Source of the DNA: Methanolinea sp.
GTDB taxonomy: Archaea > Halobacteriota > Methanomicrobia > Methanomicrobiales > Methanospirillaceae
Length of the DNA stretch: 33,654 nt
Assembly: GCA_018263335.1 (NCBI GenBank)
Contig: JADFCY010000022.1
Span: forward strand, 1 to 33,654
Reading direction: 5' to 3'
Shown here: piece by piece, positions 547 through 30,037 of the stretch
Numbering within the stretch: position 1 is the first letter of the stretch
Layout of the letters: every line of letters starts with the position of its first letter
Translations under genes and position numbers: made by a program
Notes under the pieces: generated by a model
What the model was told of the DNA's origin: nothing
Seen by the model: the letters and a program-made list of their open reading frames with translations, nothing else
The model's database searches: none

Positions 547-3500
547 TCACGGGTTCCCGGACGCGTACCTGTATTTTCCGGCGGGCACCCTGATCTCGAA
601 CCTGGCACCCTTCCCCGGCACGCCGTTCTCAGTGATCGTGATCCCGGTGATCGCAAGGATCTCGCGGGACAGGAAAAGGCCCATGCCGGTATTTTTCCCG
701 TATCCCCTGCAGAATATCTTTTCTTTCTCCGCGGGAAGAATGCCGACCCCGTCGTCCTCGCACACGATGAAAAGACTGTCACCTTTTTCTTCCCCGGAGA
801 ACCGGATGGTCGTTACCTTTTCGCCGAACCGGACGGCATTATCCACAAGGTTGAACAATACCCTGCGGATCAGCGAATCGACAAAGATCTCCGTTCCCCT
901 TGGGATGTCATTGATCAGGCGGACTTCACCGAGGGGGGTCTCCCCTGCAACGGAATCGACAAGGCGCCGGAGGTCCTGCCAGAGGGGGATTTCGACCCCG
1001 ACACTCTCGTAATCCTTCGTAAAGCGGATAATTGCCGCGATACGGTCTGCAGCTCTTGCGATAATCCCAACCTTTTCAGAGATTCCGGGGTCTGGCTGCT
1101 CCTCCTCGATAAGGGTTGCAGAGCCTTGGATAACGGTGAGCTGGTTGGCGATATCATGCCGGGTGATGGAGGAGAGGAGGTTGAGATTGCGGTTCGCCAG
1201 GCGCAGCGCCTCCTCCACCCTTTTCGGCCCGGTGATGTCACGGCCGACGGACTGGTACCCTATGGGCCTCCCCTTTTCATCAAAGATCGCCCGGTCGCTC
1301 CACTGGTGCCACCGGACATCCCCGTCCGGCATGATGACCCGGTGCTCAATGGTTCCGACCGGGTGACCAGGGGTGAGCGATGCAAAGAACCGCCGCACCC
1401 TCTCGCGGTCATCAGGGTATATGACGGGCCGGAACACTTTACCGGTCAGCTCCTCCGGTGTCCTGCCAAAGCAGGCTGCGTACGCCCTGTTGACAAAGAC
1501 ATGTGTTCCGTCCGGCAGGAACCGGCAGATGAACTCAGTCTGGTCCTCGATGATGGTATGGTACAGTTCCTTACTTTTCCGCAAGTCATCCTGTGCCTGG
1601 ATCCAGCTGGAGACATCGTTATAGATGGCAACGATCTCACCGCTTGTCAGCCTGTAGACCCAGTTCTCCCGCCATGTCCCGGGATCGCGGTCATCCCTGT
1701 AGATGGCGGGCGGGAAATACGCGACTTCTCCCGTCTTCCAGACCTGCTGCAACACCAAGAGAAGCCCGAAGTCCCGGACCCCCGGGAAGACGTCCGTGAC
1801 ACGCCTGCCGATGACCTCGTTTTTTGAGATGTGTTCAATCTCTTCTGCTTTTGGGTTAAAGTCACGGATGATGAAATCCTCCCCGTTATCGACTGCCTCG
1901 TACACCACAACGGCACTCGGCATTGTGGAAAATATCCGGCGGTACCGTTCTTCGCTTTTTCTCACCTGCTCCCGGGCATGTTTCTCCTCGGTGATGTCCC
2001 GGAACGTCCCTTCCACACCAAGAACGGACCCGTCCGGTGCATAATAGAGATGGCTGTTCGTTGAGACAAGTACGGGTGTCCCGTCCTTTCTCCGGAGGAG
2101 GACTTCGTACCTGGTCACCTTCCCGTTCCGGTAGATTTCCTGCAGGAACGCCTCCCGGTCTGCCGGGTTATAGTAAAAGTCCTCTGCAATTGGTCTTCCT
2201 ATACACTCAGAAATATCATCGTACCCGAGCAGCAAAGCCCACGAATTACTTGCCCTCACGAGCCTTCCTTCTGTATCCGTCCGGTAATAGACATCCTGGA
2301 TCTGGTTGAGGAGAGATGCATATTCCCTGTTTGCTTCAAGAAGCGCCTCCTCGGCCCTCTTCCGGGGTGTGATATCCAGAAGCGACGCAATGCTTTTCTG
2401 GGTACCCGGGATCAGGCTGACTGCAAGGTAAATGTGCCGGATCTCCCCCGTTCCCGTGAAAAACCTGAATTCATAGTTCTTGAGGGCCTTGTCCGGATCC
2501 GACCGCCGGAGACGGTGCTGTTTTTGCATCCGGTCCAGGTCCTCCTGTACCACAAAGTCCATCCATTTTTTCTTGTTCACGATCTCGTCCCGGGAAAGCC
2601 CGGCCAACCTGATGAACTCGGAATTTGCAAGACTGATCGTCCCATCATTCTCGATGAGGACCGTTGCCGTGCCGGTCGTCTCAAAGATGGTCCGGTAGAA
2701 CCTCTCACTCTCCTGGATGGCGTTTTCAATTTCTTTCTGGGCAGTCCTGTCGATAATAATCCCGCGAAGACCAGTAATTTCTCCCCCGGAAAAAATAGGG
2801 GTCATATAAACCGTGATAGGAAAAGTGGTCCCGTCTTTCCGAAGCGCAGTGTAATCACGCGGCGGGGATGAGCGGGGCATAAGCCCTTTTCGCATCATTT
2901 CCAGGGCCTCCTTGGCTCTTTCCCGGTCTTCGGGCGCGATCATCTGGAGAGTGGACAACCCCTTCCCAAAGTCCTCATCTGTGTACCCAAACAGCTCAAA
3001 CGCCACCCTGTTTGCATATGTCAGCACGCCTTCCCTGTTCATCTCGAAAATGACCACAGGCAGCAGGTCTGCCAGCTCGCGGAATCGTCTCTCGCTTTCG
3101 GCCAGGGCTGTGAGAGTCTTTTTCTTTTCGGTGATGTCCCGGATGGATTCTATCGCCCCGGCAACCCTGCCCCGCGTGTCGTACAGGGGCGCTGCCGTGA
3201 ACCAGAGCGATGCACCCCTCCCCTGTTTCAAGTGGGGGAGGGTGATCTCTGCATAGAGCTTATTCCCCACCCTCCTGATGGAGGGATACTTTGCTTCTAT
3301 CTCGGGGTAGTTTCCAAGCACCAGGTCGATGAGGATAGGGCGGCGTTCGTGGTAGAAGGGGAGTGCATACTCGAAATTGCCTTTCCCCAGCATATCGCTG
3401 GCAGGAACACCCGTCATCCGTTCCATGGAACGGTTCCAGGCAATCACCTTTCCGTCTGTATCGATGGCAAACGTCGCGTCAGGCAGGAACTGGACGATCT

Positions 3501-3918
3501 GCCGGAGCCTCTCCTCGCTCTCGAGGCGTTCCTGCCTGGCCTTGTATAATTCAACAGCCCGTGAGATCTTGCGCTCCAGTTCTGCGAACTGGGGCCGGGG
3601 ATCTCCTCCTTTCTGGAGGTAAAAATCAGCACCGTTCTCAAAGGCCTCGATGACGACCTCCTCGCGGCCCTTGCCTGTAAAAATGATAAAGGGGATCGTG
3701 TTTCCCTTTCCCCGGATCTCCTTGAGAAGGGCGATGCCGTCCATCCCGGGCATCATGTAGTCAGAGACGACCACGTCGTATTGCCTGGCGTCCACCTTCT
3801 CGAGTGCCCTGGGGCCGGAATCCGCAACGTCGACCGAGATATTTCCCATTTTTTCAAGGAATATCTTTGTCAGGTCAAGGAGTGCAGGCTCGTCATCGAC
3901 GTAGAGGACAGAGATCAC
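547..3918 (-). CDS. Receiver/multi-PAS sensor histidine kinase
   Basis: Soluble hybrid signalling protein of 1123 residues. Residues 1-125 form a response-regulator receiver domain: acidic residues in YVDDE, phospho-acceptor Asp53 in the VVSDYMMPGMDG context, and conserved Lys103 in LQKGG. About six PAS domains follow (roughly 137-265, 275-395, 400-520, 525-650, 655-775, 785-895), several opened by the usual SE.RYR linker. The phosphorylated His is probably His921 in SSITRHDIANQL. The C-terminal ATPase shows the N box (LFNLVDNAVRFG), G1 (DDGVGI) and G2 (GMGLFL). No membrane segment is visible, so it should sense a cytoplasmic signal such as redox state or a small molecule. Translation starts at a GTG giving MISVLYVDDE, with a GGGAGAG site upstream. 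No output regulator lies next to it. The receiver-first layout is common in Methanomicrobiales (family knowledge); the signal and partners are unknown. A paralogue lies at 25766-28396. Confidence 0.93.
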   Translation of the reverse strand: MISVLYVDDEPALLDLTKIFLEKMGNISVDVADSGPRALEKVDARQYDVVVSDYMMPGMDGIALLKEIRGKGNTIPFIIFTGKGREEVVIEAFENGADFYLQKGGDPRPQFAELERKISRAVELYKARQERLESEERLRQIVQFLPDATFAIDTDGKVIAWNRSMERMTGVPASDMLGKGNFEYALPFYHERRPILIDLVLGNYPEIEAKYPSIRRVGNKLYAEITLPHLKQGRGASLWFTAAPLYDTRGRVAGAIESIRDITEKKKTLTALAESERRFRELADLLPVVIFEMNREGVLTYANRVAFELFGYTDEDFGKGLSTLQMIAPEDRERAKEALEMMRKGLMPRSSPPRDYTALRKDGTTFPITVYMTPIFSGGEITGLRGIIIDRTAQKEIENAIQESERFYRTIFETTGTATVLIENDGTISLANSEFIRLAGLSRDEIVNKKKWMDFVVQEDLDRMQKQHRLRRSDPDKALKNYEFRFFTGTGEIRHIYLAVSLIPGTQKSIASLLDITPRKRAEEALLEANREYASLLNQIQDVYYRTDTEGRLVRASNSWALLLGYDDISECIGRPIAEDFYYNPADREAFLQEIYRNGKVTRYEVLLRRKDGTPVLVSTNSHLYYAPDGSVLGVEGTFRDITEEKHAREQVRKSEERYRRIFSTMPSAVVVYEAVDNGEDFIIRDFNPKAEEIEHISKNEVIGRRVTDVFPGVRDFGLLLVLQQVWKTGEVAYFPPAIYRDDRDPGTWRENWVYRLTSGEIVAIYNDVSSWIQAQDDLRKSKELYHTIIEDQTEFICRFLPDGTHVFVNRAYAACFGRTPEELTGKVFRPVIYPDDRERVRRFFASLTPGHPVGTIEHRVIMPDGDVRWHQWSDRAIFDEKGRPIGYQSVGRDITGPKRVEEALRLANRNLNLLSSITRHDIANQLTVIQGSATLIEEEQPDPGISEKVGIIARAADRIAAIIRFTKDYESVGVEIPLWQDLRRLVDSVAGETPLGEVRLINDIPRGTEIFVDSLIRRVLFNLVDNAVRFGEKVTTIRFSGEEKGDSLFIVCEDDGVGILPAEKEKIFCRGYGKNTGMGLFLSREILAITGITITENGVPGKGARFEIRVPAGKYRYASGNP

Positions 3919-7144: not shown

Positions 7145-9356
<2,212 letters not shown>

Positions 9357-9360
<4 letters not shown>

Positions 9361-11210
9361 ACCTTCGAAGATATATTCGGGGCGAGCACTCCGATGAGTG
9401 ACTGCAGATCGCCGGACGCCTTCTGGAGAGTGCGGATACGGTCCGCGATCTCATCCGCATGCTCTTTTCGTCGCGTATAGGCTGCTTCGATGGCGCCGTA
9501 CGTGGCTTCGATGGTAGTGGCGAGGTCGTCGTCGAGTTCGCGTGAGAACACCCTGAACGCGGCATCGATGTTCTGCAGAGTGGCCCACCTGAGGTTCTCG
9601 ACATTGTGGACGACGAGCGTCTGGATCTCCTTTCCAATCCGTGCCCTGGCCCGCTTCTCGCGGATCGAGCGGGGGAGCGCCCTGTCGACGAGGTCCGGGG
9701 AGATGGTGCCGAGGACACCCGACCAGGACTTGCGCGATACCCAGTAGGGTTCCCGGGCAAGGACAAGGGGGCTTTGGGCCGCGGGTGCATGGTGCGGGAT
9801 CTCGAAGATGGTCGATGCCGCCACCCGTATCGACTCGACCAGTGCGGCCGCCCGTTGCTGGTGGGCGGAGAGGATCGCGATCAGTTCACTGTCGAACGTC
9901 GCGGTGACAACGCCAAGGGCATGCTCGAAGTAGACCGGGATCTCCTGGGCGATTGCGTCCTCTGCGACCTGCGCATCCAGGTCCTCTGCCGTGGAGATCG
10001 CAGATGAGGCGACGCTCTCCAGGTGTTCTCGTGCGGTCTTTCTCAACCCGGCACACTGTTCCTCGAGGAGCTCGACCACGCGCCTGTGATCCCCGTTCAG
10101 GATATCCTGGGTGTGCTGGCGCTCCCTTTTTGCTTCGTCGATCTTCTTCTGGAAGAGGGCGAGGCGCTGTTCGAGGTCATTGATGGGCATCTGGAGGGAC
10201 CGCATCTCGAGGTTGACCTGGAGCAGTGCGTCGGAGAGGAGGTCAAGTGCCTTTCCCCCGACTGCTTCCCTGAGGACCCTGGTCTTTTCCTGTGCCAGGA
10301 ACTCGATGAGGTGCTCCGTGATGCCGGGGAGACCGCTTGCGTCAAGGAGGGCAGCATCCCCCTTCTCCTTTGCGGCGAGCGCCTGCCTGGCAGAGACAGG
10401 GAAGATCCTGCCGTCAGGCACGATCCCGGTCCGTTCCGCGAGGACCTTTCCCAGGAACGCGAGCGCAGTCTCGCGCTCTCGATCGGAGAGGTAGTCGATC
10501 TTGTTCAGCACAAAGAAGACCCGTGCCACCTTCTCCCTCACCTGGCGGAGGAACTCCACCTCGACTTCCGTGATGGGCGGGTCGGCCGAGACCAGGAAGA
10601 GCGCAGCATCGCACTGGGGGAGGAAGTTGAGGGTCATCTCGGTATTGTGCCGGTGGGTCGACCCGATCCCGGGGGTGTCGATGAGGACGACATCTCTCAG
10701 GATGGGGGAAGGGTGGGTGATCTCGACGTAGGAGACCCCTTTTATATTCTTCGGGTTGACCTCCTCTGACACGTAGCCAAGGAGCGTCCTGCTCATCCAG
10801 CTGGCGTCGGCAGAGGGATGGATCTCTTCTGTCCGCTTGTCCTGGAAATGGACGTGGATTGAGCGCTCCTGCCCGTAACGGATGAAGGTCGGGATGGCAG
10901 TGAGCGGGATGACGGAACTTGGGAGGATGTCTTCTCCCAGGAAGGCATTCAGGAGCGTGCTCTTCCCCCGCTTGAACTGCCCAAGGACGGCCAGCTGGAA
11001 CCTGCCCTCAGCGAGCCGGTCCCGGAGGCCGGTGAGGGCCTGGGCCTGGGGGGCCATTGCCGGGCCAAGGCCGGCAAGGACGCCAATCCCCCTGTTCATG
11101 AGGTGGGGGAGGTCCCGGAGAGGTGAGTCCGGAACAGGGGAAGATTGGTGGTCGTGCGGTCCTGAAGCATCAGGAGGGGCACCGTGGAAGTGTGTGATCG
11201 GTTCGGGCAT
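9357..11210 (-). CDS. Dynamin-like GTPase
   Basis: 617 residues. The GTPase domain has G1 GQFKRGKS (77-84), a Thr in the PLTAIPT switch I segment near 103-108 as in bacterial dynamin-like proteins, G3 DTPG (178-181) and G4 NKID (236-239). Residues 330-400 form a long coiled-coil stalk (NLEMRSLQMPINDLEQRLALF and following), and a second helical region lies at 540-610. This matches the Dynamin_N family, whose members bind and remodel membranes or tether proteins to them. No clear transmembrane segment is seen. The start ATG follows a GGTGGAG ribosome-binding site. It is the first gene of the operon with the prenyl-repeat protein and enolase, with ATGA coupling at its 3' end. Its association with a possible isoprenoid-handling protein suggests a membrane-related role (inference). 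Confidence 0.9.
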
Positions 11211-11349: not shown

Positions 11350-11776
11350 CGCTATTGTGGGGACGGGGAGATGATCCGAGGGAGAGGACACCCGTACAAT
11401 GTCTTCCTCTGCGAATATTCCGGTCCTGATCTTTTTCCCGGCCCTCTGGTCATCAGCGTTTTTCGAGCACATTTTTCCTCTTTGCATTTTCATACGTCGG
11501 ACCTGTTCCGGGGGTGCGTCTCCCTGATCTCGCATTGCGCGGGTCTCCCTGACCTCTTGTGCCCGCCAAAAGCCCCCGGGATTTCTCTCTCCTCGCGAAG
11601 AGTAAAAGGAAGAGTGCATTCGCGCACTCCGGGGTGGAACAGGAGGATCTCTTTGTCGGGCACAGGCCGCCTCGCAAAAGAAGATCCTGTCCTGAATGGG
11701 AAGTGATGCACAGGCAACCTTGTAACGGAATCTTGCAAAATTGCGGTGATTTTTTGATTTTATTTCACATAAGGGC
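11350..11776. other. Intergenic region between two divergent operons
   Basis: No gene recognised. The minus-strand frame of 149 codons at 11329-11778 has no domain and a composition unlike the neighbours. The right end (11745-11826) is very AT-rich, with several T and A tracts, and contains the promoter of the sulfur-relay operon. Confidence 0.4.
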
Positions 11777-11777
11777 A

Positions 11778-11787
11778 TAATTTATTC
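11778..11787 (+). promoter_or_regulatory. Possible TATA box of the YeeE/DsrE/TusA operon
   Basis: ATAATTTATT stands about 45 bases before the first ATG, which fits a transcription start near 11808 and a leader of about 20 nt. It lies in the most AT-rich part of the region. Confidence 0.4.
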
Positions 11788-11826
11788 AAAAACGTTATCT
11801 AAAAAAAAATCAAATGATAGTGACTC

Positions 11827-12360
11827 ATGGAACTACGATATCCCCGCGATACAATACGCAATATTTCCTCGGTCCTCATCCGGCACCCGGCGTTCCTCGG
11901 TGCAACAATCGGGATCCTGGCAGCGTTCTCCCAGGCGCTCCTGATCAGTGCCGGCGGGCCCGAGGCGTACGGGTTCTGCGTCGCATGCCATACCCGCGAC
12001 CTGGTGAACGGCATGACCAATATTGTCGCAGGTACCAGCCTCGCCCTGGCCGCCATCTCGAAGAACTCCCTTCTTCCCGTCATGAGCGTGGCGGGGGTCC
12101 TTATCGGGGGATACATCTCGGCCACCCTTCACCGCGAGCACAGGATCAAGAAGGGAACGAGGATTGAGTACCTGTGGTACTTCCTTGCAGGCGTCGCGGT
12201 CTTAAACCTCGCGATGATATTCGGCGGGTGCCCGTACCGGGCAGCCCTCAGGACAGGATACGGCGACCTCACCGCCATTCTCTTCATCGTGGCGATGGCA
12301 GCGGGAGTGATCCTGGGAGCATACCTGATGCTCAAAAAAGCCGAGAGGGAGGACGCCTGA
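11827..12360 (+). CDS. YeeE/YedE-type sulfur transport membrane protein, first half
   Basis: 177 residues with about five membrane segments (near 22-42, 62-80, 84-100, 116-134, 148-168). It carries the two short motifs typical of the YeeE/YedE (sulf_transp) family: GFCVACHTRDL with Cys51 and Cys54, and FGGCPYR with Cys135. In characterised thiosulfate transporters (TsuA) such buried cysteines pass the substrate through the membrane. Full-length family members have about 340-400 residues and two such halves; here each half is a separate gene, the second starting at 12360 in a TGATG overlap. The pair should assemble in the cytoplasmic membrane to import thiosulfate, another reduced sulfur species, or a selenium species. 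The downstream sulfur-relay genes support this; the substrate is inferred. Confidence 0.88.
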   Translation: MELRYPRDTIRNISSVLIRHPAFLGATIGILAAFSQALLISAGGPEAYGFCVACHTRDLVNGMTNIVAGTSLALAAISKNSLLPVMSVAGVLIGGYISATLHREHRIKKGTRIEYLWYFLAGVAVLNLAMIFGGCPYRAALRTGYGDLTAILFIVAMAAGVILGAYLMLKKAEREDA

Positions 12361-12884
12361 TGGCGACCGGAATCCTTCCAAGGGAAGCCGCAATTTTCTT
12401 TGTCCCCCTCGTGACCCTTCTCCTGGGCATTCTGATCGGGTACCTTGCACAGCGATCAGGATACTGCTCGATTGGCGGGTTCCGCGACTATTTCCTGTTC
12501 CGGCACACACGTCTCCTGTCAGGGTACCTCACCCTTATCGTGGCTTCGTGTGCAGGGTACCTCCTCTTCTGGTTCCTCACCCCTGATGCGATGGAGCACT
12601 TCTTCTGGGCACTCAAGAGCGGAGTTGCCACTCCCATTCCCGGGGCACCCGGAAGCCTTGATACCACTGCATATCTCATCTTCTCGATAGTCCCCGGCTT
12701 TTTCGTCGGGTTGATCGCGGTGTTCATCGGCGGCTGCCCTATCCGCCAGACCGTCATGGCATCCGAAGGGAACTACAAGGCGGCCTGGTTCTTTGTCGGA
12801 ATGTGTGTGGGTTCGGTCCTCTTTGCCGCGATCGTCTCAGGCTGGGTCGTTGCGCTGATGAGATCGCTTGGGTTTGGAGTCTGA
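12360..12884 (+). CDS. YeeE/YedE-type sulfur transport membrane protein, second half
   Basis: 174 residues, starting at the ATG that shares one base with the stop codon of the previous gene (TGATG). The frame is open further upstream but overlaps that gene. Four to five membrane segments are visible. Family motifs are RSGYCSIGGFRD with Cys36 and IGGCPIRQ with Cys126, arranged as in the first half. It complements the 11827-12360 product to give one complete transporter of the YeeE/YedE class. The gene for the triple DsrE-domain protein begins seven bases after its stop codon, so both are likely co-transcribed and imported sulfur would be handed to it. Confidence 0.88.
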   Translation: MATGILPREAAIFFVPLVTLLLGILIGYLAQRSGYCSIGGFRDYFLFRHTRLLSGYLTLIVASCAGYLLFWFLTPDAMEHFFWALKSGVATPIPGAPGSLDTTAYLIFSIVPGFFVGLIAVFIGGCPIRQTVMASEGNYKAAWFFVGMCVGSVLFAAIVSGWVVALMRSLGFGV

Positions 12885-12890
12885 ATCGCC

Positions 12891-14048
12891 ATGGCCTCCT
12901 CCACCTTTTTCTTCTCTGACCTGCTGTCAGGCGAACGCCTGGGCTGGGTTGGAGAGACGCTCCGTGCATCCAGAGCGACAGGCCACCTCAACACCACCGT
13001 GTTCCTCACCGGCGACGCCCTCTACAGCCTCGTTGACGCAAGGACCAGGGACTCCTGGCGGGCCCTCGCGGAGCGGGACGGCATCCGGATCGTCGCCGAC
13101 GGGGACGAACTCGAACTCCACGGCCTGCAGGGTCCGGTTGCGTCCGGGTCTCCATGGGTCACGGTCGCGGGAAGCCAGGACGAGGCCCCGTTCTGGCAGT
13201 CCCTCGTCTCGTCCCTTGCCGTTGCGTGGAAGGGCACAAAGGAAGCAGGGTTTCTCCTCTGCGAAGGGCCGTACATGAGCCGGGTGACCGTCTACATGGT
13301 CAGGTTCCTCTCGGCCGTCCAGGCAGGAAGCCTTTCGCCGGAGCTCTACACCTACCTTGACGGCGTCCATGCCCTGCACAACGGCCAGCGCCCGTCCGAG
13401 TTTGAGAATATCGGGCGGGCGATCGCGGCGATCTCTGCCTCCGCGGTCCAGGCCGGCAGGGACCCCTGGTTTGCCGCCTGCTCCCGGTGTGCGACGGCGA
13501 GGGGCTACTACCAGATGAACCCCGGGACAGGGTTCTGCGAGCCCGCCTCCGCCATCGAGGAGATCGCCATCCGGCCGCTCAAAGAGATCCTCTCGCGGTT
13601 TTCCGGGAACCTGCCGGTCGTATCGTCCGCGTCGGGGGACGTGGTGCCGGAAGCGTTGCAGAAAGACCGCGTGCCGCGGCTCGTGATCTTCATCGCACGC
13701 CCCCCGTACTGCGCGGAATGGACCTTTGGGGGGCTCTCGCTTGCCCTCGCCGCTGCGATGGGCGGGATACCGGCAACAGTCGTCTTCATAGAGGACGGGG
13801 TGTACGCACTCCACGGGAGCCACCAGGTCCCCGCGAACGACAAGGTCTTCAATGTCCAGGAGATGATCGCGGTCACTACGGATGTTCCGGACCTTGAGTA
13901 TTTCGTGCACGGGCCTTCGCTTGAAGGCCGGGGGGTCGACCTCTCACCCGGCTTCCCGATGATCCCTCGTATAGGAAACGAAGACCTTGCCCGGGAGCTC
14001 CTGAAAGCGGAGCGCGAGGGTGCCGCATCACGGCTCATATTCTTTTAA
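12891..14048 (+). CDS. Protein with three DsrE-like domains, probable sulfur relay
   Basis: 385 residues, equal to about three DsrE domains of 128. The N-terminal third (1-95) has the Rossmann-like pattern of the fold (STFFFSDLLSGERLGWVGE, TTVFLTGDALYSL) without a catalytic cysteine. The middle third (115-235) is the most DsrE-like: YLDGVHALHNGQ, then AACSRCATARGYY with Cys197 and Cys200, where the C..A.(R)RG pattern places the sulfur-carrying cysteine of DsrE; another Cys is at 216. The last third (262-385) resembles DsrF/DsrE (LVIFIARPPYCAEWTFGG with Cys274, then VVFIEDGVYAL). In sulfur oxidisers DsrE, DsrF and DsrH form a hexamer that exchanges sulfur with TusA and DsrC. A single chain with three such domains could act as a pre-assembled DsrEFH-like unit (inference). 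A GGAG lies upstream of the ATG. No dsrAB or dsrC gene is in the window. Confidence 0.8.
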   Translation: MASSTFFFSDLLSGERLGWVGETLRASRATGHLNTTVFLTGDALYSLVDARTRDSWRALAERDGIRIVADGDELELHGLQGPVASGSPWVTVAGSQDEAPFWQSLVSSLAVAWKGTKEAGFLLCEGPYMSRVTVYMVRFLSAVQAGSLSPELYTYLDGVHALHNGQRPSEFENIGRAIAAISASAVQAGRDPWFAACSRCATARGYYQMNPGTGFCEPASAIEEIAIRPLKEILSRFSGNLPVVSSASGDVVPEALQKDRVPRLVIFIARPPYCAEWTFGGLSLALAAAMGGIPATVVFIEDGVYALHGSHQVPANDKVFNVQEMIAVTTDVPDLEYFVHGPSLEGRGVDLSPGFPMIPRIGNEDLARELLKAEREGAASRLIFF

Positions 14049-14067
14049 AAATAGAGGGGAGACTGAC

Positions 14068-14283
14068 ATGACTGAACCAATGGATTTCACCGAACTGACC
14101 TGCACGAACCTGATGATCAAGTTGAAGATCCTGCTGAACAAGCTCCCACAGGGCGACCGTGTCGCCTTCTTTGCAACGAGGGAGCAGGTGGACAACACGT
14201 GCTCGCCGTTTTCGGGCCAGGGATACCAGGTCTCGTGGGACCAGGAGGCAGAGAACCGGTATCTCGTCAGGCTGGGGAAGTGA
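14068..14283 (+). CDS. TusA-like sulfur carrier with altered CPxP motif
   Basis: 71 residues; start chosen at the ATG giving MTEPMDFTELTC, preceded by GAGGGGAGACTGAC. A longer frame exists but overlaps the previous gene. The layout follows TusA closely: a cysteine at the start of the first helix (Cys12 in LTCTNLMIKLK), the LPQGD turn where TusA has a P-G-E/D turn, a second Cys (45) before the FSGQGY segment, and the end RYLVRLGK. TusA proteins carry their sulfur on the Cys of CPxP; here it reads CTNL, so both prolines are replaced while the Cys stays. It may therefore be a diverged carrier working only with the DsrE-like protein encoded 20 bases upstream. Last gene of the operon. Confidence 0.75.
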   Translation: MTEPMDFTELTCTNLMIKLKILLNKLPQGDRVAFFATREQVDNTCSPFSGQGYQVSWDQEAENRYLVRLGK

Positions 14284-25765: not shown

Positions 25766-28396
25766 CTACACATGTGAGGAGGGATACCGGAACCCTCCTG
25801 CCGGAACGCAAATCTCGAACCGAGCCCCTACTCCCGGCGTGCCGGTCTCTCTGATGGTCATCCCGGTGATCGCAAGTATCTCACGGACAAAGAAGAGCCC
25901 GAAGCCGCTATGCCTGCCATATCCCCTCTGGAAGATCCTCTCCTTCTCGCTCTCGGGGATACCGATGCCGTCGTCCTCGAAGACGATGACGAGTGTCTCT
26001 TTGGTCTCATCTGCGGATATCCTGATCCTCGTCGCCTTCTCGCCGAATCGAAGGGTGTTCTCAGTCAGGTTGTAAAAGACCCTCTCCAGCATTGCATCGG
26101 CATAGACTTCGAGATCGCCGGTCTCGTCAGTATACTGAATATGCCCGAGATCGCACTGTCTGACTGCGTAGGCACTCACCTCATGCACCCGCTGCCACTG
26201 GGGTGCGGTGACCCCCAGCTTTTCATATTCCCTGGTAAATTCTATCTGGCCGATGATCGCGTCGATGATTGCAGCCTCCTTTTGAAGCAGTTCATGGACC
26301 TCCCCGCTTTGCTCGCAGCGACTGAGGAGATCGTGGTATCCCTGGAGCACGGTGATTTTGTTGAGAATGTCGTGGCGGGTGATCGAAGAGAGGAGCGCAA
26401 GCTTCTTTGCTGCTTCAGAAAGCGCCGATTCTGCCCTTTTCCTCTCCGTGACGTCACGGACAAATGTCAGCACAGTCGGCGTTCCCTCCAGATCAAAAGT
26501 GGTTGCGCTGATCTCGACCGGGATCTTCTGCCCCCCTTTTGTGATAATTTCAGTTGGATATACCTCCTGCCCGGGAACAGATGTATCCCTCACGAGAGAG
26601 TCCGCGCGTTCCCTCTCTCGACGCGTATCCAGGTCAGAAGGGGTCATCTGCAACAGTTCTTCTCGACTGTAGCCGGTCAGGCGAGATGCCCTTTCATTCA
26701 CTTCGATATATTTTCCAGGCTCTCCCGCGGTCATCTCATACACGAAGATGGCATCATTCGCGTTCTGCAACAGGAGGCGGTACCGGTTCTCGCTCTCGCT
26801 GATGGCCTCTTTTGTTCTCATCTGGTCAGTGATATCTTCCAGTATCCCGTCAAAATATTCGATTGTCCCATCATCCCCGGGAACTGCAACGGCGGAGAGC
26901 CGGCCCCAGAACAGCTCGCCATTCTTCTTTTTGAGATGGAGGGCAACATTGGAGAGACGCCCATCATGCTGGAGACGGGTGGAGATCTCTCTCCTCTCTG
27001 AAGGGTCTGCATACATGTCAGACACGGGGGTATTCATGAATTCTTCAAAGGAATCGTAGCCATGCATCTTTGCAAGGATCGGGTTTGCCATGATCCGCCG
27101 CCCGTGTGGTCCTGGGGTATTCCTGAAGATCCCGACAGGAAGGTTATGCATGAAGTTATTGAGCTGCTCTTCCCTTTTCTTCAAGGCATCCTCCATCTCC
27201 TTTCGATCGGTGACATCAGTCAGGAAATTCAACGTCGCAGGTCTTCCTTCCCATATAATGAGTACAGGCCGGATCTCCACCCACCGGATGGATCCCGGTT
27301 TGCTCCTGATCCTGAACTCGTAGACTGGCGGGAGGTCCTCCCCACTGACTCTTTTCCTGTACCGGGAGATGATCATCTCGCGGTCTGCATCATGGATAAA
27401 GTCGGTAAACGGGCGCGAGAGAAGTTCTGACGACGAGTACCCGGAAATATCTGACATCTTGGGATTGACAAATTTCAGGTAATTGTCCTGCGCAACAAAG
27501 ATGCCCTCGTTTGCATGTTCTACAAGGGTGCGATATTTCTGTTCGCTCTCCCTTGCACATTCAAGGGCTGCCTGCGCCCGCTCACAGGCCACCCGCAGTT
27601 CATCTTCTTTTGTCCGCAATGAGGTGATGTCCTGGAGCGTCTCGACTGCCCCGATAATGCTTCCGTTTGTATCATGGAGAGGCGCAGCAGTAAAAAAGAG
27701 CCAGGTCCCCCCTTTTATTCCGGGAAAAAAATCGGTTGCCTGGTATGCACCGTTCACAATCGGGGATTCCTGGTATTTTCCCGCATACCATCGGACAATT
27801 GCATCAATGTCGTTCTCCACGATCAGGTCAGCGAGGCATGGGCGTTCTCTGTCGTAAAACGCCCGCCAGTGGTCTTTGGTCCCTATAACATCCCCTGCCA
27901 TTATTCCGGAGTATTCTTCGAGCGCACGGTTCCAGAATGCCACCTTATGGCCGCTATCAATGACGAATTGAGGAATGGGTGAACCCTGGACGATCTCGAG
28001 CATCAGGTTCCTGGAGACCCTGTCCTGGATGGACCTTTTAATTTTATGTACCAGTTCTGCGAACTGCGCTTTTGGATCGCCCCCTTTCTGGAGGTAAAAA
28101 TCCGCCCCGCTGTTGAGCGCCTCGATGACCACCTCTTCCCTGCCCTTGCCGGTAAAGATGATAAACGGAGTCTGGTCTCCTCGTGACCGGAGAACCTTCA
28201 AAAACGCGATGCCGTCCATGCCCGGCATCTGGTAATCCGAGATGATGGCATCGTAATGAACAGACGCAAGTCTCTCAAGTGCTTCCTGTGCGGAGCTGGC
28301 TGTCGATACCTGGAACTCGCGTGTCCGTTCAATGGAGACCTTCACGATCTCGAGCAGGGCAGATTCATCATCGACATACAAGACTGAATACATCAT
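25766..28396 (-). CDS. Receiver/multi-PAS sensor histidine kinase, second copy
   Basis: 876 residues; same plan as the 547-3918 protein with fewer PAS domains. Receiver domain 1-125 (YVDDESALLE, phospho-acceptor Asp54 in IISDYQMPGMDG, LQKGG lysine), then four PAS domains (about 130-265, 290-410, 420-535, 540-660), the probable phospho-His at 675 (SSITRHDILNKI) and the ATPase domain with LFYNLTEN-type N box (VFYNLTENTLRFG), G1 DDGIGI and G2 GFGLFF. No membrane helix. The receiver and kinase ends are clearly similar to the first protein, so they are paralogues, while the PAS parts differ, so they should sense different signals. Start ATG-ATG (MMYSVLYVDD). Confidence 0.93.
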   Translation of the reverse strand: MMYSVLYVDDESALLEIVKVSIERTREFQVSTASSAQEALERLASVHYDAIISDYQMPGMDGIAFLKVLRSRGDQTPFIIFTGKGREEVVIEALNSGADFYLQKGGDPKAQFAELVHKIKRSIQDRVSRNLMLEIVQGSPIPQFVIDSGHKVAFWNRALEEYSGIMAGDVIGTKDHWRAFYDRERPCLADLIVENDIDAIVRWYAGKYQESPIVNGAYQATDFFPGIKGGTWLFFTAAPLHDTNGSIIGAVETLQDITSLRTKEDELRVACERAQAALECARESEQKYRTLVEHANEGIFVAQDNYLKFVNPKMSDISGYSSSELLSRPFTDFIHDADREMIISRYRKRVSGEDLPPVYEFRIRSKPGSIRWVEIRPVLIIWEGRPATLNFLTDVTDRKEMEDALKKREEQLNNFMHNLPVGIFRNTPGPHGRRIMANPILAKMHGYDSFEEFMNTPVSDMYADPSERREISTRLQHDGRLSNVALHLKKKNGELFWGRLSAVAVPGDDGTIEYFDGILEDITDQMRTKEAISESENRYRLLLQNANDAIFVYEMTAGEPGKYIEVNERASRLTGYSREELLQMTPSDLDTRRERERADSLVRDTSVPGQEVYPTEIITKGGQKIPVEISATTFDLEGTPTVLTFVRDVTERKRAESALSEAAKKLALLSSITRHDILNKITVLQGYHDLLSRCEQSGEVHELLQKEAAIIDAIIGQIEFTREYEKLGVTAPQWQRVHEVSAYAVRQCDLGHIQYTDETGDLEVYADAMLERVFYNLTENTLRFGEKATRIRISADETKETLVIVFEDDGIGIPESEKERIFQRGYGRHSGFGLFFVREILAITGMTIRETGTPGVGARFEICVPAGGFRYPSSHV

Positions 28397-28675: not shown

Positions 28676-30037
28676 TCACACTCCAAGCGCCACTCTCAGG
28701 AACTCCTGGACTTTTGGCCAGGAGTCCACTGCGGCGTTTGCGTTCTCCGGCGGAATGCCCCCGAGGTCCTCGATCATTCCGCCCGGCAGGGAAATCCTGT
28801 TCAGCTCTGTCGACTGCCACGGCGTCCGGATCATGTGTCCTGACCCCGGGTAATCGAGACGCATATCCGGGAAGGGGTGGTGGTATTCGGTGAGCCTGGC
28901 CATGATCTCTCTGCTCATCTGCGAGGAGGGCCAGACCGTGTCCTTTCCGGCCGAGAGGAGGAGGACCGGCCCGTTGATCCGCTCCACCGGGATCGTCGCG
29001 TTGCTCACCGCGGCCTCGTCAGCCAGCGCCCGCTCGTACATCGCGAGGGTCCCCCAGGGAGTCCCATTCTGTGCTGCTTCTCCCATCGAGACGAGGATGG
29101 GGTCGTCCTCACCGTACCAGATGAACGGCACGAAGGAGAGATCGCTCCCGTTCTCGGACCATGAGGATCGAGGTCCGGCGCTCCAGTCCATCGAGATCCC
29201 CTGGAAAACGACACTGCTCGGGCTGTTTGCGACCACCGCACGGACCTCAGGGTAGCGGGTGGCGGAGAGGAGGGCGAGCTCCGCTCCCTTGGATGCCCCG
29301 TAGATCGCGATATGGTCCTCCTTCACGCGGGGGTGATGGTTCAGGAACCGGACCGCGTCTCCGACAGTCTCGACTGGGATCCCCACCAGTTCCTGCGGGA
29401 GACCGGGGACCCCGAAGTAGGCGAGGGCGAGAGTCACGTATCCTTTCGACGCAAAGATGGCGGCGATCCCCTCGTTCACCCCTCCCTCCGATCCCCCGAG
29501 GTAGATGAGGGCCGGGCGGGGACTGGTGCCTTCCGGCAGAAAGAGGGTTCCATGCACCCCTGCCTCGTCGACGGGAACCCGGAAGACCCCGTCACCCATC
29601 AGCCGGCGTTCCAGGACCTGCGAGAGGTTCACCCCGGATTCGGTGCGTGCCGAGATCGTGATGAAGGAAGGGGCAGTGGTCCTCGAGAAGACGTCCGGGT
29701 GTTCGACGGGACCCGGGGCCAGTGACCAGAAGAGCCCCTGGGGGTCAACCCCGCCATAGGTCCCTTCCACCAGGGCATGGACGTCAGGGAGGACCCTGCC
29801 CTGCCGGTCGGCAACAAAGACCGCGTAAGAGCGCAGAGTCGAGTTCCTGACCTCCTGCACCGCATCTATCCGGACCCGATCGCCGGGAGCAACGCCGGTC
29901 ACCGCGATCGACACCGGGTCGCCGGAGAGGACAACTGAAGGGGTGACCGAGAGTGCGGGAGCGTGGCGTAGGGTGATGCATCCCGCGGCAACGACAAAGA
30001 CCACGGGTATCAGCACGACCGCCGCGGAGAGGAGCAC
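28676..30037 (-). CDS. Exported lipoprotein of the BAAT / acyl-CoA thioesterase alpha/beta hydrolase family
   Basis: 453 residues from a GTG (an in-frame TAA lies just upstream). Lipobox VVAAGC with Cys20. Residues 30-145 are the beta-sandwich N-terminal domain of acyl-CoA thioester hydrolase / bile acid-CoA amino acid N-acyltransferase (VTPSVVLSGDPVSIAVTGVAPGD, GTYGGVDPQGLFWSLAP). Residues 155-450 are the BAAT C-terminal alpha/beta hydrolase: PALIYLGGSEGG, nucleophile Ser249 in YGASKGAE, Asp366 in SAGKDTVWPS and His401 in PGSGHMI. The triad is complete. The characterised relatives work inside cells on acyl-CoA; this one is predicted to be outside the membrane, where CoA esters are not expected, so it may cleave another ester or transfer an acyl group. 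Confidence 0.9.
   Translation of the reverse strand: MLLSAAVVLIPVVFVVAAGCITLRHAPALSVTPSVVLSGDPVSIAVTGVAPGDRVRIDAVQEVRNSTLRSYAVFVADRQGRVLPDVHALVEGTYGGVDPQGLFWSLAPGPVEHPDVFSRTTAPSFITISARTESGVNLSQVLERRLMGDGVFRVPVDEAGVHGTLFLPEGTSPRPALIYLGGSEGGVNEGIAAIFASKGYVTLALAYFGVPGLPQELVGIPVETVGDAVRFLNHHPRVKEDHIAIYGASKGAELALLSATRYPEVRAVVANSPSSVVFQGISMDWSAGPRSSWSENGSDLSFVPFIWYGEDDPILVSMGEAAQNGTPWGTLAMYERALADEAAVSNATIPVERINGPVLLLSAGKDTVWPSSQMSREIMARLTEYHHPFPDMRLDYPGSGHMIRTPWQSTELNRISLPGGMIEDLGGIPPENANAAVDSWPKVQEFLRVALGV

Follow-up and report, generated by a model that had tools for sequence, protein, structure and literature searches.

The four genes A to D of an archaeal stretch of 33,654 nucleotides (hereafter the window) form one tight operon, as judged by their order, spacing and co-occurrence. 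We read it as a sulfane-sulfur import and relay system, an archaeal relative of the YTD cluster, that would serve the maturation of Mo/W-pterin enzymes; we give this reading a probability of about 45%. A role in sulfur import and relay, whether directed to Mo/W enzymes or to general supply, is likely. In the proposed mechanism, the split YedE pair (A and B) would import a sulfane-sulfur compound across the membrane, either thiosulfate (the likeliest by homology) or a related molecule. Protein D would capture the sulfur on Cys12 at the membrane, in the manner of YeeD in the YeeE–YeeD pair, where the cysteine of the partner is the ‘fourth cysteine’ at the permease exit (PMC11073785). Protein C would then accept the sulfur from D on its CxxC cysteines and hand it onward, most likely to end up as a ligand in Mo/W-pterin enzymes, chiefly formylmethanofuran dehydrogenase, either directly or via FdhD. 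We infer the substrate, the direction of transfer and the acceptor of this relay. The sequence-only reading from which we started had left the acceptor unnamed; gene neighbourhoods in relatives suggest to us that it may be the Mo/W-pterin enzyme maturation path.

The window belongs to a 2.03-Mb genome in 47 contigs (contig G000:C14), and the nearest relatives of this genome carry the labels Methanolinea or Methanoregulaceae. The features of the operon are listed in Table 1.

Table 1. Features of the four-gene operon; positions are those of the window
Feature	Position	Strand	Description	Evidence
Gene A	11827..12360	+	177 aa, N-terminal half of split YeeE/YedE permease	PF04143, TIGR04112 positions 4-134
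Gene B	12360..12884	+	174 aa, C-terminal half of split YeeE/YedE permease	PF04143, TIGR04112 positions 186-304
Gene C	12891..14048	+	385 aa, three-domain DsrE-superfamily fusion	PF02635, predicted model, PDB fold matches
Gene D	14068..14283	+	71 aa, TusA-fold protein, CTNL replacing CPxP	Predicted fold, alignment
CxxC of gene C (Cys197, Cys200)	13479..13490	+		Conservation among operon copies
Cys12 of gene D	14101..14103	+		Invariant in alignment
AT-rich stretch 5′ of gene A, presumed promoter region	11720..11826	+		Base composition

The packing described in the sequence-only reading is exact to the base: A and B overlap by 1 base, 6 bases lie between B and C, and 19 between C and D. The AT-rich region that it placed ahead of gene A is also there, with a GC content of 25% over the 60 bases nearest the gene, and GC at third codon positions of the four genes is 69–81%. 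B, C and D each have a plausible ribosome-binding sequence ahead of them. No promoter of gene A was identified by a sigma-70 scan, which performed at chance level with a model that does not apply to archaea. The A-B-C-D order is retained in all 27 four-gene loci examined (22 of them distinct), with the 1-base A/B overlap in 22 of the 27, a B–C spacing of at most 6 bases in most loci of the window's genus and a C–D spacing of 14–21 bases in most four-gene loci. This conservation of order and spacing is far above chance. The operon is present in 8/8 sampled genomes of the window's genus and in some genomes of four further genera of the same family. The idea of one system, which had been made to depend on co-occurrence in related genomes, therefore survives. 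Elsewhere in the window, a dynamin-family GTPase gene (9357-11210, minus strand) diverges from the operon and shares a few bases with a prenyltransferase-toroid-like gene (8428-9360). Two large proteins with receiver, several PAS and histidine-kinase ATPase domains are encoded at 547-3918 and 25766-28396, both on the minus strand, as is a two-domain acyl-CoA thioester hydrolase/bile-acid transferase-like protein (28676-30037; PF04775 and PF08840), which is unexpected for a methanogen.

The assignment of both half-length proteins to the YeeE/YedE family holds, as each passes the PF04143 cut-off of 27 bits (29.0 bits for A and 29.8 bits for B). They align to the N- and C-terminal halves, respectively, of TIGR04112, and their alignments contain invariant cysteines at positions 51, 54 and 135 of A and 36 and 126 of B. 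TIGR04112, a putative selenium transporter, is the best named model for both, and the two halves joined score 128.8 bits against its cut-off of 200. Scores against the TsuA models are far lower relative to the cut-offs (for gene B, 23.1 bits against 645 and 17 against 400). No useful match to A, C or D came from sequence searches of the PDB.

The TIGR04112 match would fit selenium uptake or trafficking, as proposed for bacterial YedE–YedF, a system of selenium-using prokaryotes, and split archaeal YedE pairs together with a link to SelD have already been described (PMC5322559). The present system resembles YedE–YedF in associating YedE with TusA- and DsrE-type domains, and the archaeal YedE is likewise split; it differs from it in having no selD, no YedF fusion and a TIGR04112 score below the cut-off. 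Moreover, among 150 genomes of the order only one contains a selD above the cut-off, and this one is without a YedE pair. Deletion of yedE in Methanococcus maripaludis also gave no clear selenium phenotype (PMC11097638). We thus regard a selenium role as very improbable and have largely rejected it. Of the import and persulfide hand-over of sulfur or selenium proposed at the outset, the sulfur relay is supported and selenium is not. In the sole selD genome, a DsrF-like domain is encoded directly upstream of selD (L073, G043:C1:2045381-2046942). SelD-like proteins scoring 83–94 bits (cut-off 125) lie about 3–4 kb from fdhD in four other places (G081:C1:1527101, G137:C1:1569827, G089:C1:396790 and G064:C1:1254962). 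Distant split YedE pairs followed by Se_S_carrier (PF11823) and Carb_kinase-like genes were seen at L150 and L151 (G440:C75 and G308:C21); no D-type protein was found at these pairs.

The TusA-like carrier of the sequence-only reading stood in part. Gene D has a predicted TusA fold (pLDDT 91.3) with matches to SirA-like 3hz7, YeeE–YeeD 8j4c and IscS–TusA 3lvj, at TM scores of 0.76–0.78 against TusA-type structures, and its N-terminal cysteine is conserved: Cys12 is the single cysteine invariant in the D family (13/13 aligned). On the other hand, D scores 14.3 bits against the TusA model PF01206 (cut-off 28.6), and CPxP is replaced by CTxLM in the family and by CTNL in the window. The prediction thus makes D a protein of TusA fold that is not a canonical TusA. 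PF01206 had no match anywhere in the window's genome and none was found in its genus, so that D would have to act as the carrier there. Across 393 genomes of the phylum, 21 carry a gene D; it adjoins the YedE pair in 20 of these, the remaining copy (G125) being cut by a contig edge. In one genus (g3) a CPxC-type TusA sits between B and C, and in a further family (f6) a CPxC-type TusA and then D come after the YedE pair, and C is missing.

The DsrE-like assignment of gene C also holds, and can be refined. The PF02635 DsrE domain is found at residues 265-350 with 41.5 bits (cut-off 22.7), and this last domain is the only one to pass the cut-off. The predicted model shows three Rossmann-like domains in one chain, with limits at about 1-112, 116-260 and 262-385, the N-terminal one having no sequence match; as its mean pLDDT is 65.7, the model is only a guide. 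At moderate confidence, its fold matches in the PDB are YchN, DsrE/F-like proteins, DsrEFH and TusBCD. Because other archaea of the phylum encode counterparts of the middle and last domains in adjoining but distinct genes, the best reading of C is that of a fusion protein whose domains are encoded apart elsewhere. The CxxC cysteines, which from their conservation are likely to carry sulfur, are retained in 23/23 operon copies compared with 3/15 lone paralogs. A tree of C groups the copies from the window's genus and its allies in a single clade and places those of the g3 operons among the lone paralogs, which suggests either repeated gain or loss of C by the operon or an exchange. A plasmid search with C gave no match. 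One copy of C is broken across two reading frames and contains an in-frame TGA (L068:289-1534, G011:C1:845291-846533), with a second copy of C and an fwd operon nearby.

The modelled domains of C resemble the DsrEFH/TusBCD sulfurtransferase complexes in fold, and a weak sequence resemblance to TusC was found, which could speak for C acting like TusBCD in 2-thiouridine synthesis, given the likeness of its fold to TusC and TusD. C differs from these complexes in being a single chain, of three predicted domains, with its CxxC in the middle one. A role in tRNA thiolation seems most improbable: the annotated neighbours of C include no thiolation gene, and the TusE/DsrC partner (PF04358) was found in 0/15 genomes with a positive E. 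coli control. On this last result we also rejected DsrC as the sulfur acceptor; it bears out, for DsrC, the earlier statement that no Dsr pathway was visible.

The acceptor has to be argued from relatives, since the operon of the window's genus is not near Mo/W genes (0/8 genomes) and no sulfur or Mo genes were found outside the operon among the window ORFs scanned. Across 26 genomes, fwdC is found no more than 10 kb away from 17 of 33 copies of C, compared with 0.7 expected, a count uncorrected for ancestry; closeness of genes does not in itself establish a function. Operon copies contribute 6 of 17 (0.33 expected by random placement) and lone copies 11 of 16 (0.36 expected by random placement); the 6 operon cases all belong to one genus, and the 11 lone cases are spread over six genera in three families. 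All 6 g3 cases have the YedE operon 6.5–8 kb from fwdC. Several lone paralogs of C are located inside formylmethanofuran dehydrogenase operons, in the order ferredoxin, fwdD, fwdB, fwdA, fwdC, a SagB/nitroreductase-like gene and C; others adjoin MoeA pairs, and at L066 a lone C lies behind a ModA-type transporter and ahead of an fwd operon. In f6, the YedE pair adjoins an FdhD homologue and a cysteine desulfurase, and loci L106 and L109 additionally contain an fwd operon. The SagB/nitroreductase-like gene after fwdC was seen at L071:7493-8248, L062:7057-7809 and L066:12209-12985.

Formylmethanofuran dehydrogenase is the first enzyme of CO2-based methanogenesis. Its tungsten carries a sulfido ligand (PMC10385643, PMC11493965), so that the enzyme could plausibly be the end user of the relay. 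Among the closest known systems, FdhT–FdhU of Campylobacter likewise combines YedE with TusA- and DsrE-type domains and is associated with formate dehydrogenase, a bis-pterin enzyme (PMC11237541). Most of the copies of C within fwd operons no longer have both CxxC cysteines, so that another role, perhaps structural, is possible for them. Furthermore, of the two FdhD genes in the window's genome, one lies beside SufS-type cysteine desulfurases (G000:C27), and a parallel cysteine-fed route may therefore exist and may suffice. It is with considerable doubt that we suggest the strictest form of the mechanism, in which a dedicated relay would install or renew the sulfur ligand on the W/Mo of formylmethanofuran dehydrogenase, replacing or by-passing the cysteine-dependent FdhD route. 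FdhD genes are of two types in these methanogens (L153-L166; for example G000:C27:4192-4875 and G000:C22:85997-86650). The E. coli FdhD loop carries a CxxC (PMC12140954); at this site the readable FdhDs have one cysteine (SGCGGA/S) or none (STGAVGV and similar).

We may wonder whether the relay rather feeds bulk needs (Fe–S clusters, cysteine and other cofactors) with no dedicated Mo/W acceptor, the proximity to fwd reflecting the clustering of energy-metabolism genes. Bacterial YeeE–YeeD do take up thiosulfate for assimilation (PMC11073785), the operon is isolated from Mo/W genes in the window's own genus, and a siroheme sulfite reductase-like gene, present in 31/31 genomes tested, could take the sulfite left from thiosulfate. 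Such general supply is a real possibility, to which we lend something like one chance in three; what speaks against it is that C has become linked, repeatedly and independently, to fwd, MoeA, ModA-type and FdhD genes across several genera and families. The sulfite reductase-like protein is small (L106:6092-7060 and homologues; G000:C46:67521-68363 in the window's genome), and its gene lies inside the YedE cluster in g3 and f6 and elsewhere in the window's genome. Around the YedE pair of f6 and the YedE operon of g3, it is accompanied by OsmC and C_GCAxxG_C_C genes, and in most g3 loci also by cysteine desulfurase-like genes. These surroundings could point to the handling of sulfur stress, that is to the uptake or neutralization of reactive sulfur (polysulfide, thiosulfate or sulfite) rather than biosynthetic supply. 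However, the OsmC-like, C_GCAxxG_C_C and sulfite reductase-like genes are absent from the window's locus, a membrane importer would be an odd detoxifier and the Mo/W context would be left without explanation; we therefore hold stress handling to be improbable.

The closest known system to this putative import and relay operon is the YTD cluster (yedE–tusA–dsrE), which occurs in sulfur-disproportionating and cable bacteria and has been described anew as dsrEFH type II (PMC9751629, PMC13293266). Both unite a YedE-type permease, a TusA-fold carrier and DsrE-type proteins with conserved cysteines in one cluster, for which import followed by a persulfide relay is proposed. In the methanogens, however, YedE is split over two genes, the DsrE-type domains are fused, the carrier lacks CPxP (a CPxC-type TusA being present in g3), DsrC is missing and relatives are tied to Mo/W genes. 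As two YTD features, the CPxP-type TusA and DsrC, were not found, and with the fusion and the altered carrier, we consider the operon to be a YTD-like variant and not a member. It also shares with TsuA–TsuB (YeeE–YeeD; PMC11073785) a permease with a TusA-fold partner, the predicted fold of D matching the YeeD part, but its permease halves score far below the TsuA models, D has no CPxP and a DsrE-type protein is added. What is new here is the fusion of the DsrE domains in one chain, the altered TusA, the lack of DsrC and the recurrent Mo/W context; a literature search, which was not exhaustive, found no paper on this operon or its link to fwd.

Finally, archaeal split YedE pairs need not signal selenium use, which matters for their annotation. 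The operon and its relatives offer a concrete and testable candidate route by which imported sulfane sulfur may reach the Mo/W-pterin enzymes of these methanogens.
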